Shown here piece after piece: positions 23,136-28,399 of a stretch of 64,000 nucleotides of DNA. Both the position numbers and the translations under genes were made by a program. The DNA comes from Jatrophihabitans sp. Its GTDB lineage: Bacteria > Actinomycetota > Actinomycetes > Mycobacteriales > Jatrophihabitantaceae. Each line of letters opens with the position of its first letter. Position 1 is the first letter of the stretch. The notes beneath the pieces were generated by a model. That model worked only from the letters and a program-made list of their open reading frames with translations, was not told the origin of the DNA and made no database searches. The DNA lies in the NCBI GenBank assembly GCA_025924515.1, contig JAICIE010000001.1:1-64000 (forward strand), given 5' to 3'.

Positions 23136-23339
23136 TCAGACGACGCGGACGTTGTCCGCCTGGGGACCCTTCTGGCCCTGAACGGCGTCGAACTCCACGC
23201 GCTGGTTCTCGTCGAGGGACTTGTACCCGTTACCGACGATGGCAGAGAAATGCACGAAAAGGTCCTTGCCGCCGTCGTCGGGGGTGATGAAGCCGAAGCC
23301 CTTTTCGCTGTTGAACCACTTCACGGTGCCTTGTGCCAT
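23136..23339 (-). CDS. Cold shock protein (CspA family)
   Basis: [34 protein letters not shown]. Confidence 0.96.
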
Positions 23340-23586
23340 TACTGCTTCCCTTCGATGAAGCCGGTGCCGCAACGCACCCCGCGTGCGTCGCGTGGTTTTG
23401 CGGATGACGGCCTTCGAGTCAAGCAACAAAGGCGACAGGCGCAACTGCAACAATCCTGCGTCGCGCATCAAGCCGATGAAGGAACTGCTGACAACCGTCC
23501 ACCACCATAGCAGGCTCGCTGGTGCTCGGCATCGGATGGGGCGTGCCGCCCCCTGTGCTCGCTCGTGCGATGCGCCGCAACCGGCT

Positions 23587-25029
23587 TCACCGGGTCGGCA
23601 ATGTGATCCCGTACCGGGTGATCTTGCGATAGATGGTCGCCCGACCGATCCCGAGCTTCTGCGCGGCTTGCACCATGCTCACGCCGGGCTCGGTCAGGCA
23701 CCGCACGATCTCGTCGCGCTCGACGACTTCCAGCCGGCTCAGCGGTGCCCGGCCGCTGGTGAAGACCTCGGGCGGCAGGTGACGGGCGTCCACGAGGTCG
23801 GTGCGTGCGGCCGCCTGGCGGACAACCTCGCGCAACTGCGCGACGTTGCCCGGCCAGTGATAGGCGCTCAGCGCGCGGGCGGCCGCGGGTGCGAACCCGA
23901 TCGGCCGCTGCCGCTCCGTCCCGGCGATCTGCTGTGCCAACGGCAGAACGTCTTCGGTGCGGTGCCGCAAGGGCGGCGCCTCCACGACCGTGTCGACGAG
24001 GCCGGCTAGCGGGGTCGGAATGGCGTGAAATGCCCGAGCGGCCAGGACGAACGGCTGCGGCTGTGCGCGAGTGTGCCGGTGTCCGGCCAGGACGGCCGCG
24101 AGCTCGTCGGCCGCCCAGGCGGGCAAGGTGTCGATGCGCGACACGACGACGCAGGTGTCCTCGGCCTTGATCTCCGGCGTCCAGGAGGCGAGCCACGCCC
24201 CCACGTGGTCGCCGGCCGGCGCCCGGGCGTGCAGGATGCGAGCGCGAGCGGTGAGCCGCCGCCGCGCCAGGGCCGCGAGGGTCGCCTTGCCCGCGCCTCG
24301 CTCACCCACCACGGCGGCCACCCGCCCGGCCGCGAGCGCCGCCCCGAGCTCGCTCACCGCCGAGCGCCAGCAGGCCGACACGCAGGGGTCGGCGTCCTGC
24401 GTCCCGGTCGCGACGACGACGTGGAAAACCTCGCCGCGCAGCGCACGGCCGGGAGCGCGGCCCCCCGCCCGCGCGAGCATGAGCGCCGCCGTGGCGCCGG
24501 CCGCAGCCTGCGCCAGCGCCAGCAGCAGCTGTGAGGACCGGTCGGACCAGGTGGTCAGGTTGACGGTCCCCGCCAGGTCGCCGCTGCGCGGGTCCACTAC
24601 CGGCACCGCCGCACAGGTGTAGCCCCGCAGGTCCGCGCAGTAGTGCTCCTCCCCACGCACCAGCGTGGGCGCCCGGTCTGCCAGCGACAGACCGAGACCG
24701 TTCGTGCCCGCGGACCGCTCGGCGAAGGTGAACCCGGGGGCCAGATGGACCCGGTCGAGCGACCGGGCGATAGCCGCGTCGTTGCAGTGCCGGTCGAGAA
24801 CGAACCCGTCCGGATCGGCGAGCATCAGGCTGACCGGCTCGTTGGCGATGGTGCCGTACAGGTCCTGCAGCACCTGGTGGCCGCAGTCGTAGAACAGGCA
24901 ATCGGTGTCGAGCGCGGCGCTGAAGGCCGGCTCCACGTGCTCCAGCGATACGCCGTAGCTTTCCGACCGCCGCCATGAAGCACGCACCCGGGCCGGCGCC
25001 GCGATCTCTGGCAGGTCCGGGTCGGACAC
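23587..25029 (-). CDS. AcoR/MimR-like enhancer-binding-type regulator (GAF + degenerate AAA+ + Fis HTH)
   Basis: [73 protein letters not shown]; degenerate Walker [26 protein letters not shown]-terminal Fis helix [21 protein letters not shown]. Confidence 0.88.
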
Positions 25030-25081
25030 GCCGTCAGCCTACGTCGGGACATCTCGATCCCGGGCCCCGCGAACGTTCTGC

Positions 25082-25114
25082 GGTCTCTCGGGAGACCTGT
25101 CCCAAAGTGAGACA
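25082..25114. promoter_or_regulatory. Two adjacent inverted repeats (GGTCTC-tcgg-GAGACC and TGTCCC-aaagt-GAGACA) in the divergent promoter region
   Basis: Directly read between 25029 and 25203. Confidence 0.55.
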
Positions 25115-25202
25115 TCACCCGGGTTACGCCGCGACGTCGCGCTGCCTACCGTCCTGCTTCAGGGGCGCCGGGCGCCCGACCAGATCCAGGCGGAGGTTGT
25201 TG

Positions 25203-26228
25203 ATGTACACCAAGGACAACGAGAAGTACTTCGTCGTCGACGCCCACGTGGCGCTGTGGGACGCCCGTCCGGAGAACCAGCGCAACATCCACGGCAAGCA
25301 GTTCATCGACTGCTTCTACGACTATCACAAGAACCTCTCACCGGAGTCCGAGGTCTGGCCTTACGAGGACTACCTGTACTACGGCGGCGACCGCCTGATG
25401 AAGGACCTTTTCGAGGACGGCTACGTCGATCATGCGATCTTCCAACCGGCGCTGCTCGGCGAGTTCTACAAATCCGGGTTCGGGCAGACCGAGGAGGCGA
25501 TTGCGCTCGCTCAGGCGCACCCGGGAAAGCTGACCTACAACCATGTCTTCGACCCGCGCTTCGGTGAGGACGGCCTCGAGCGGTTCCGCCGCGACGCCGA
25601 GCGGATGAAGCTCAAGGGGGTCAAGCTGTACACGGCCGAGTGGCAGGGTAACTCGCGCGGCTACTCACTCGCCGACCCGTGGACCTACCGCTACCTGGAG
25701 GCATGCCAGGAGATGGGAGTCGCCAACATTCACGTCCACAAGGGCCCGACGATCCGGCCGCTGGACCGCGACGCGTTCGACGTCGCCGACGTGGACAAGG
25801 TCGCCACCGACTTCACCGACCTCAACTTCGTGGTGGAGCACTGCGGGCTGCCACGGCTCGAGGACTTCTGCTGGATCGCGACCCAGGAGCCGAACGTGTA
25901 TGCCGGCCTTGCGGTGGCGATGCCGTTCATCCACACGCGTCCGCGCTACTTCGCGCAGATAATCGGCGAGCTGCTCTACTGGCTGGACGAAAACCGGATC
26001 TTGTTCTCCAGCGATTATGCGATCTGGACGCCCAAGTGGCTCGTCGAGAGGTTCGTCGACTTCCAGATCCCCGAGGACATGGCGGAGTACACGAAGTTGA
26101 CCGCGGACATCAAGAAAAAAATCCTCGGACTCAACGCCGCAGCGCTCTACGGGATTCCTGTGCCCGACGAGCTGCAGGTCCGACCCGCTCCCGACCAAGT
26201 CGAGCGCGAGGCCGCGGCGGTCGCCTGA
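25203..26228 (+). CDS. Amidohydrolase-family (amidohydrolase 2) protein as in mim/prm propane monooxygenase clusters
   Basis: MYTKDNEKYFVVDAHVALWDARPENQRNIHGKQFIDCFYDYHKNLSPE; FVVEHCGLPRLEDFCWIATQEPNVYAGLAV. Confidence 0.87.
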   Translation: MYTKDNEKYFVVDAHVALWDARPENQRNIHGKQFIDCFYDYHKNLSPESEVWPYEDYLYYGGDRLMKDLFEDGYVDHAIFQPALLGEFYKSGFGQTEEAIALAQAHPGKLTYNHVFDPRFGEDGLERFRRDAERMKLKGVKLYTAEWQGNSRGYSLADPWTYRYLEACQEMGVANIHVHKGPTIRPLDRDAFDVADVDKVATDFTDLNFVVEHCGLPRLEDFCWIATQEPNVYAGLAVAMPFIHTRPRYFAQIIGELLYWLDENRILFSSDYAIWTPKWLVERFVDFQIPEDMAEYTKLTADIKKKILGLNAAALYGIPVPDELQVRPAPDQVEREAAAVA

Positions 26229-27025
26229 TGACGGTGGCGCAGAGGTCCCGACACGCGGCATGCCTGGAGATGGAGGTCCGCCGCGCGCTGGACGCCGTAT
26301 TCGATCCGGAGCTGGACGAGCCGATCACGGACCTCGGCTTCGTGCGGTCGGTGGAGGTCGACGAGGGAACGGTGACCGTGCACCTGCGGTTGCCGACCTC
26401 GTTCTGCGCGCCGAACTTCGCCTGGCTGATGGCGTCCGACGCGCGCGAGGCGGTCCGCGCCGTTCCCGGCGTCGACCGTGTCACCGTCGAACTCGACGAC
26501 CATCACGACTCCGAGATCGTCAACCGCGGCCTGGCAGCCGGCAATGACTTCAAGGCGACCTTCGGCGCGGAGGCCGAGCAGGATCTTGACGCGCTGCGGT
26601 CGGTCTTCCGCCGCAAGGCGCACGTGGCGGCGATGGAGCGAGCGGTCACCGCTTGGATGAGCGCCGACGCCACCCGGACGGAGGCCGACGTCGCCGGCCT
26701 GGTCCTTGCCGACCTGCCGCCCGGACGAGCGGCCGACGCACTGGTCCGGCGCCGGGGCGCGCTCGGCTGGTCGAGCGAGCCGCACGATCGCGTCTTGGTG
26801 GACGAGCACGGCAGCGCCGTCCGGCCGGAGGACGCGGTGCGGCGGTTGCGACAGGCGCGTTCGGTTCGGGTGTCCGTCGACGGCAACGCCTACTTCTGCC
26901 GCGGCCTGCTGGCCACCCGCTACCCCGGCGCCGAGGCCGACCAGTCGCCGCGCGACCAGGGGGACGGCACCACCCGTCCCGTCCTACCGATTGTTCTACG
27001 TTCGCCGAAGGGTGCAAACGCATGA
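26228..27025 (+). CDS. DUF59/MIP18-type metal-sulfur cluster assembly protein with C-terminal extension
   Basis: VRRALDAVFDPELDEPITDLGFVRSVEVDEGTVTVHLRLPTSFCAPNFAWLMA. Confidence 0.85.
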   Translation: MTVAQRSRHAACLEMEVRRALDAVFDPELDEPITDLGFVRSVEVDEGTVTVHLRLPTSFCAPNFAWLMASDAREAVRAVPGVDRVTVELDDHHDSEIVNRGLAAGNDFKATFGAEAEQDLDALRSVFRRKAHVAAMERAVTAWMSADATRTEADVAGLVLADLPPGRAADALVRRRGALGWSSEPHDRVLVDEHGSAVRPEDAVRRLRQARSVRVSVDGNAYFCRGLLATRYPGAEADQSPRDQGDGTTRPVLPIVLRSPKGANA

Positions 27026-28047
27026 GAGCCGTCCGCGTCGTCGAGTATCACGAGAGCCTGCAGATGGACGACGTTTCGGAGCCGCGGATCACCGGTCCGT
27101 TCGACGTCATCGTGAGAATCGGGGGCGCCGGAGTCTGCCGCACCGACATCCACATCCTCGAAGGCCAGTGGGCCGAGAAGTCCGGCGTCGAGCTGCCTTA
27201 CACGATCGGGCACGAGAACGCCGGATGGGTGTCGTCCGTGGGTGATGCGGTCACCAACGTCGCCGAGGGCGACAAGGTCATCCTGCACCCGCTGGTGACG
27301 TGTGGACTGTGCCGCGCGTGCCGTTTCGGCGACGACGTGCATTGCGTGAACTCCCGCTTCCCCGGCATCGACTCTGACGGGGGCTACGCCGAGTTCCTCA
27401 AGACGTCCGCGCGCAGCGTTGTGAAGATCGACGATGCGTTGGAGCCGGCCGATGTCGCCGCGCTCGCCGACGCCGGGCTCACCGCCTACCACGCCGCGGC
27501 GAAGGCGGCGCGTCGTCTGCGGCCCGGCGATCGGGTGGTGATGATCGGCGCAGGCGGCCTGGGGCACATCGGGATCCAGGTCATGGCAGCCCTCAGCCCA
27601 GCCGAGATCATCGTCGTCGACCGAAACCCTGACGCCGTCAAACTCGGCGTCGAGGTCGGCGCGACGCACGGAGTCGTCGCGACCGGCGGGCACGTCGACG
27701 AGGTGCTCGAACTCACCGGGGGAAACGGCGCCGAGCAAGTTCTCGACTTCGTCGGCGAGGGCGGATCGACCGCTGAGGGAATCCGGATGACCCGGCGGGC
27801 GGGTGACTATCACGTCGTCGGCTACGGCGAGAACGTCAACGTGCCGACGATCGACGTCATCTCCTCCGAGATCAACATCATCGGCAACCTAGTGGGGTCG
27901 TACAACGACCTCGTTGAGCTCATGGCCCTGGCCGCCCAGCAGAAGGTCACGCTGCACACCGCCAAGTATTCGCTCGACGACTTTCAAGAAGCGGTCGACG
28001 ACCTTTCCGCAGGTCGCGTGCGTGGGCGCGCCATTCTCATTCCGTAA
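27022..28047 (+). CDS. Zinc-dependent NAD(P) alcohol dehydrogenase
   Basis: GAGVCRTDIHILEGQWAEKSGVELPYTIGHENAGWVSSVGD; MIGAGGLGHIGIQVMAALSPAEIIVVDRN; ATGA overlap with upstream gene. Confidence 0.93.
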   Translation: MRAVRVVEYHESLQMDDVSEPRITGPFDVIVRIGGAGVCRTDIHILEGQWAEKSGVELPYTIGHENAGWVSSVGDAVTNVAEGDKVILHPLVTCGLCRACRFGDDVHCVNSRFPGIDSDGGYAEFLKTSARSVVKIDDALEPADVAALADAGLTAYHAAAKAARRLRPGDRVVMIGAGGLGHIGIQVMAALSPAEIIVVDRNPDAVKLGVEVGATHGVVATGGHVDEVLELTGGNGAEQVLDFVGEGGSTAEGIRMTRRAGDYHVVGYGENVNVPTIDVISSEINIIGNLVGSYNDLVELMALAAQQKVTLHTAKYSLDDFQEAVDDLSAGRVRGRAILIP

Positions 28048-28075
28048 CTCGGTCGACTCCGATGGAGGACATCCG

Positions 28076-28399
28076 TTGATATTCATCACCGCCAAGTTCC
28101 GGGTCCGGCCGGAGAAGGCCGACCAGTGGCCCGCCATCACCAACTCCTTCACCGAAGCGACCCGCGCGGAGCCGGGATGCCTCTGGTTCGACTGGTCGCG
28201 CAGCCTCGACGACCCGGCCGAGTACGTCCTCGTCGAGGCGTTCCGTGACGACGAGGCCGGCGCCGCCCATGTCGGCTCGCAACATTTCAAGGCGGCGCAA
28301 CGTGACCTGCCGCGGCACCTGGCCGAGACGCCGCGGATCGTGAACTTCTCCGTGCCCGGCACCGACTGGTCGGAGCTCGGGGAGCTCAGGGTCGACTGA
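28076..28399 (+). CDS. Antibiotic biosynthesis monooxygenase (ABM)/quinol monooxygenase-like protein, TTG start
   Basis: IFITAKFRVRPEKADQWPAITNSFTEATRAEPGCLWFDWSRSLDDPAEYVLVEAFRDDEAGAAHVGSQHFKAA. Confidence 0.88.
   Translation: MIFITAKFRVRPEKADQWPAITNSFTEATRAEPGCLWFDWSRSLDDPAEYVLVEAFRDDEAGAAHVGSQHFKAAQRDLPRHLAETPRIVNFSVPGTDWSELGELRVD

Follow-up and report, generated by a model that had tools for sequence, protein, structure and literature searches.

The stretch analysed here (the window, 64,000 nucleotides of contig JAICIE010000001.1 from Jatrophihabitans sp.) holds a locus in which a regulator gene stands back to back with a four-gene operon, amidohydrolase–DUF59–Zn-dependent alcohol dehydrogenase (Zn-ADH)–ABM (Table 1). 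The operon corresponds to the accessory genes of group V (mim/prm) di-iron monooxygenase clusters, here in a stand-alone form. No genes for a hydroxylase, reductase, coupling protein or GroEL are found at the window locus, as an initial annotation made from the sequence had claimed, and profile searches placed all five of its genes, a divergent regulator and a tight operon, where it had put them. Two details differ. The DUF59 protein, with ~265 aa, is not of the small type named there for mim/prm clusters, and of the ATGA couplings read at 26228 and 27022 the second stands (DUF59/Zn-ADH, 27022-27025), whereas the amidohydrolase/DUF59 junction is a 1-nt TGATG overlap (TGA 26226-26228, ATG 26228-26230). 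Translation of the ABM gene probably begins at TTG 28076, which GGAGG precedes.

Table 1. Features of the regulator–amidohydrolase locus in the window
Feature	Coordinates	Strand	Description
AcoR/DhaR-type regulator	23587..25029	minus	GTG start; DhaR/AcoR-like N-terminal half, AAA lid, Fis helix-turn-helix (HTH)
Putative operator TGTCCCAAAGTGAGACA	25098..25114	none	17-bp palindrome in the divergent intergenic region; matches YGTCYCA-N3-TGRGACR
Candidate regulator site at the operon promoter (predicted) TGTCTCAAAGTGAGACA			
Amidohydrolase-2 family enzyme	25203..26228	plus	PF04909, E 2.6e-52
Long DUF59/MIP18-type protein, ~265 aa	26228..27025	plus	PF01883, E 1e-18, plus helical C-terminal region
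Zn-dependent medium-chain alcohol dehydrogenase	27022..28047	plus	PF08240/PF00107
ABM-family small monooxygenase-like protein, last operon gene	28076..28399	plus	PF03992, E 9.5e-23

In the group V clusters, i.e. mycobacterial mimABCD with mimG and prmABCD of Gordonia TY-5 and Rhodococcus, homologues of the amidohydrolase, DUF59 protein and Zn-ADH are present in the same order, the operator is of the same type, and some clusters have an ABM gene. The window locus shares the accessory set with them but not the PF02332 hydroxylase alpha and beta subunits, the adjoining GroEL (MimG) or a MimR orthologue. Its regulator is of a different subfamily, and most of the stand-alone host genomes tested have no bacterial multicomponent monooxygenase (BMM) of any kind. 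It has the features of a stand-alone operon, namely a divergent regulator of the window type and the YGTCYCA-N3-TGRGACR operator.

When one genome was scanned per species, 412 relatives of the amidohydrolase were found, and a comparison of synteny, as the initial annotation had proposed, found the monooxygenase-free arrangement kept in most of the best 80 of these 412: mimABCD lies within the same operon in five (L092, L102, L132, L140, L149), one locus (L086) has a copy of each kind, and the remainder are BMM-free. At L086 (Prauserella alba), the stand-alone and BMM-linked modules adjoin on opposite strands. Stand-alone loci are found in Amycolatopsis, Streptomyces, Saccharopolyspora, Nocardioides, Arthrobacter, Geodermatophilus and others, and because the arrangement is found again in dozens of genera it is far beyond chance. 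Genome-wide, no PF02332 protein was found in 20 of 26 amidohydrolase-bearing genomes (at least 95% complete, class level, some of them single-contig), nor in 34 of 46 named genomes that carry the operon in stand-alone form, a set for which completeness is not displayed and which has a few genomes in common with the first. Both of the options considered at the outset, a BMM encoded elsewhere and a stand-alone pathway, exist in nature, the second being the commoner. The amidohydrolase-DUF59 pair is also present without a BMM on replicons of Thermomicrobium roseum, Peribacillus, Halorarius, Halomicrococcus and Rhizobium N324, and with one in several proteobacteria. The stand-alone form is a conserved arrangement and not a broken mim/prm cluster. 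An earlier description of the operon or its operator was not found in the searchable literature, which most subscription journals lie outside.

The association of genes was tallied over 117 loci, 94 stand-alone and 23 BMM-linked, a few genomes being counted twice. The pairing of amidohydrolase and DUF59 is obligate, with the two genes adjoining in 116 of the 117 loci. GroEL accompanies all 23 BMM-linked loci vs 2 of the 94 stand-alone ones, and the window-type regulator (at least 44% identity) shows the opposite distribution (80/94 stand-alone vs 0/23 BMM-linked). An ADH gene is present in 91/94 and 18/23, respectively, and ABM, a facultative last gene, in 41/94 and 6/23. These counts tie GroEL to the monooxygenase and DUF59 to the amidohydrolase, and give the stand-alone operon a regulator of its own. 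The sole locus without DUF59 (L160, a second amidohydrolase locus in genome G105) has a window-type regulator and an amidohydrolase, and no ADH. Apart from these, a 40% identical amidohydrolase relative lies downstream of ABC-transporter-like genes in a single-contig genome of 1.3 Mb (L161, genome G152), where DUF59 was not detected. Neighbouring open reading frames (ORFs) were clustered with a filter on third-position GC content (GC3) against shadow ORFs, and no single flanking family was dominant when Pfam families were counted over 105 neighbours. A gene for a DUF1097 membrane protein, with a possible transport or membrane role, follows the module in L070, L073, L074, L119, L120, L126, L130, L131, L136, L144, L155, L167, L228 and L229.

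A quick maximum-likelihood tree of the amidohydrolase (128 rows, some near-duplicate, with support from the Shimodaira-Hasegawa-like approximate likelihood ratio test only) places the window protein in an actinobacterial clade with support of 100 that comprises 88 stand-alone and 12 BMM-linked rows. Linkage to a BMM changes at least four times on starred branches and eight times on the best tree, and the module has entered or left BMM operons more than once. The initial annotation had held that a phylogeny outside the BMM-associated clades would speak against it. The outcome is mixed, with a BMM-free branch for the window and BMM-linked branches interspersed.

The best NCBIfam match of the regulator is DhaR (118 bits, below cut-off). 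It resembles the AcoR/DhaR regulators of acetoin and dihydroxyacetone operons in this match and in its Fis-type HTH, and differs from them in having no Pfam match to the sigma-54 activation domain, the AAA part being degenerate, and in belonging to a subfamily specific to stand-alone operons. A separate MimR coexists with the window-type regulator in G034, G025 and G040, complete genomes from the order to which the window organism belongs. The window protein is a paralogue specific to stand-alone operons and not MimR. The first label given to it, 'MimR-like', holds only in a loose sense: its subfamily is absent from all 23 BMM-linked loci, but its operator is common to BMM promoters in many genomes. 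On its far side, the regulator gene adjoins a cold-shock-protein-like ORF (23136-23402, minus strand), named from its translation alone.

The operator, which the initial annotation had not named, is common to the stand-alone operons and to several other genes. In relatives, the site lies ~100 bp upstream of the amidohydrolase gene, and among 98 promoters the pattern TGTCNC-N5-GNGACA is exact in 43 and has one mismatch in 20 and two in 19. The strict form YGTCTCA-N3-TGAGACR gave sites in 46 of 50 whole genomes scanned, the reversed control none. BMM operons are the commonest second site, found upstream of them in most BMM-bearing stand-alone genomes (by coordinates in G334, G335, G337, G338, G339, G344, G346 and G378; also in G231). 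Acetoin reductase has its own copy of the operator in L096, L216 and L219, two of the three being unlinked to the module; in L096 it adjoins the operon and in L219 it is accompanied by an ABM gene. A GldA-type glycerol/1,2-propanediol dehydrogenase is similarly placed in L217, L218 and L229, and a further Zn-ADH in L227. Both enzymes also enter the operon itself. Seven Streptomyces loci (L095, L103, L110, L117, L128, L137, L141) have acetoin reductase at the head of the operon, 22-110 bp upstream of the amidohydrolase gene; their regulator differs from the window type, and four of them have a CCGCAC-N5-GTGCGG-type repeat upstream in place of the window-type operator. In L127 acetoin reductase is the last gene, and GldA follows ADH in L121 and L145. 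All copies tested exceed the cut-off of their family (acetoin reductase 5/5, TIGR02415; GldA 3/3, PRK09423). An acetoin reductase orthologue is not general: of 13 genomes, G129 has one, as do the four in which a copy is linked. In four Prauserella species, close kin that count as one case, a diol dehydratase (PF02286) and an aldehyde dehydrogenase-like gene adjoin the module.

Further copies of the operator precede other kinds of genes. In L220, L222 and L223 (Amycolatopsis/Prauserella), it stands before a MimR-like regulator gene divergent from VOC-like and luciferase-like genes. In L225 it is at a YCII-like gene and in L231 at an aldo-keto reductase-like/TetR-like pair. Second sites in L221 and L232 have no clear target. 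The identities in this whole group are taken from sequence alone.

Because operator sites are found at BMM operons, acetoin reductase genes and glycerol/diol dehydrogenase genes, the substrates would belong to the class of vicinal diols and alpha-hydroxyketones. We hold with moderate confidence that the window contains a stand-alone, single-operator catabolic operon for such compounds, be it acetol, acetoin or a close relative. The regulator would sense a ketone or hydroxyketone and probably activates the operon from the palindrome. The Zn-ADH would interconvert an alcohol or diol and the (hydroxy)ketone, and the hydroxyketone would be converted further by the amidohydrolase-fold metalloenzyme, with its metal probably inserted by the obligate partner DUF59. 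Group V BMMs hydroxylate acetone to acetol (PMC7176365). In genomes with such a monooxygenase, the same module may handle the acetol formed from acetone, which would explain its repeated recruitment into mim/prm operons. The suggestion in the initial annotation that the stand-alone genes serve another substrate is modified accordingly, as the operator-linked genes suggest one substrate class common to both settings. In Actinomycetospora, the Mim cluster is strongly induced on acetone and 2-hydroxyisobutyric acid (2-HIBA), and its amidohydrolase accounts for 3.2% of the proteome of cells grown on 2-HIBA (PMC7176365), an abundance that fits a metabolic enzyme. Several points weigh against a hydroxyketone operon. 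Most stand-alone operons, that of the window included, have neither acetoin reductase nor GldA nearby, and a close acetoin reductase was not found in the assembled part of the window genome. Some operator sites mark genes of unclear relevance (luciferase-like, YCII-like), the ADH family is catalytically broad and does not fix the substrate, the amidohydrolase has no relative in the PDB by sequence, and the literature search found no experiment on this enzyme in any organism.

The amidohydrolase matches PF04909 at 178.8 bits (cut-off 26.4) and has conserved residues H15, H177, H179, E212, H213, D271 and K141. It departs from the canonical HxH metal motif: His15 is kept, and the second position is Ala17 in 110 of 143 rows and His in 32. 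A link between Ala17 and the absence of a BMM, which raw counts appear to show, was rejected, since there are only four clumped changes on the tree and the independent-pairs test was uninformative. The structural model (predicted local distance difference test, pLDDT, 81.8) is a TIM barrel, and the nearest Foldseek matches are an uncharacterised Bordetella protein followed by LigW, LigJ and dihydroxybenzoate decarboxylases. These amidohydrolase-2 decarboxylases/hydratases share the barrel (Foldseek E down to ~1e-10) but only ~12-18% identity, and most actinobacterial window-type members differ from them by the Ala at the second His of HxH. The DUF59 model (pLDDT 89.4) has a DUF59 domain, matched by TTHB138 and B. 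anthracis DUF59, and a helical C-terminal region. The motif DPEL, Cys60 and Cys224 (numbered from Met) are invariant in 37 actinobacterial sequences, and both cysteines also in a set of 21 from proteobacteria, haloarchaea and others. The domain, DPEL and a conserved Cys are common to PaaD, SufT and TTHB138, whereas the extra helical region with its invariant Cys is not, and the scores are below the equivalog cut-offs (PaaD 40.1 vs 180 bits; SufT 31 vs 202.6 bits). The Zn-ADH is 46-77% identical to ADHs of mim/prm clusters, 1h2b being its nearest solved structure. Nothing was found in the literature on the function of the amidohydrolase and DUF59 proteins, including any assigned role for their genes in propane/acetone monooxygenase clusters.

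As to the exact reaction of the amidohydrolase, we offer a guess that is rather unlikely to be right: the amidohydrolase-DUF59 pair may be an alpha-hydroxyketone C-C-cleaving metalloenzyme and a candidate for the acetol-cleaving activity of Mycobacterium Py1. We know of no identification of a gene for that activity. DUF59 would then be a dedicated metal or Fe-S maturation factor, and the enzyme would act on acetol in organisms that degrade propane or acetone, and elsewhere on acetoin or ketones derived from diols. The Py1 activity, by which acetol gives acetate and formaldehyde, is cited in PMC4033308. In a single genus (L154, L156), the module is flanked by genes that resemble formate dehydrogenase and FdhD, named from sequence alone; they would fit a C1 product, in this single lineage.

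The operon could instead serve secondary alcohols and their ketones (2-propanol, 2-butanol, etc.), with hydroxyketones not being substrates and the links to acetoin reductase and GldA resulting from broad co-regulation. Propane metabolism in Gordonia TY-5 is described as requiring the cluster ADH (PMC6849523), and the operators common to BMM promoters would be compatible with this. Acetoin reductase and GldA nevertheless recur behind the same operator in several separate arrangements, and neither would be expected for simple ketones, which makes this alternative unlikely.

Another alternative is that the window carries the accessory half of a split mim/prm system, the BMM, GroEL and MimR being encoded in sequence missing from the assembly. 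The window genome is a metagenome-assembled genome of 3.70 Mb in 253 contigs with a completeness of 82.57%, and a BMM could have been lost because ~17% of it is missing; a rough Bayes estimate from the frequency of BMMs in relatives puts such a loss at 7-20%. Split systems do exist. The complete genomes G034, G025 and G040 combine the stand-alone operon with a MimR-MimABCD-GroEL locus at another place that has no accessory genes, and the arrangement was already reported for Mycobacterium sp. AT1, in which the amidohydrolase, a gene of unknown function and the ADH are at a chromosomal place apart from mimABCD-groEL (PMC6849523). AT1 differs from the window genome in having a BMM. The assembled window genome gave no match to PF02332, in a run that detected hydroxylases in nine relatives, and none to a MimA protein query. 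It also has a single copy of the operator palindrome, at this operon, and the finding that according to the initial annotation would overturn a monooxygenase-free system, a BMM elsewhere with the same operator, was negative to this extent. With the majority of genomes that have this operon being BMM-free, a split system in the window genome is distinctly improbable. Even if a BMM is absent merely from the assembly, stand-alone operation is normal for this operon.

The remaining alternative, that the amidohydrolase and DUF59 are maturation factors of the di-iron monooxygenase and the stand-alone operon a remnant after BMM loss, can point to PaaD, a DUF59 protein tied to phenylacetyl-CoA epoxidase (weak matches here), and to a plasmid record without mimBCD that retains the rest (L001), but is very improbable and largely refuted, being kept only for BMM-linked copies: the stand-alone form prevails in the actinobacterial clade, is kept in dozens of genera with its own distinct, conserved regulator and operator and intact reading frames, is also BMM-free in haloarchaea, Thermomicrobium and Peribacillus, and stands beside the linked form in L086. 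Both a role solely in BMM maturation and an origin as the remnant of a degraded cluster were rejected on these grounds. In the plasmid record (Rhodococcus aetherivorans BW2, NZ_CP154794.1, 5530-7888 of L001), the hydroxylase alpha gene is joined to the middle of a Zn-ADH gene. Rhodococcus sp. JS3073 (L007) has the cluster intact, and against it mimB, mimC and mimD are gone and amidohydrolase-DUF59-ADH-GroEL is kept.

In conclusion, the amidohydrolase and DUF59 protein, which are difficult to investigate as long as they are linked to a complex monooxygenase, form an independent unit in many actinobacteria that have no BMM. Several common laboratory genera are among these hosts, in which simple knock-outs and induction experiments could reveal the role of the two proteins. 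The common operator provides a testable substrate class and, possibly, a candidate enzyme for acetol cleavage in acetone metabolism.

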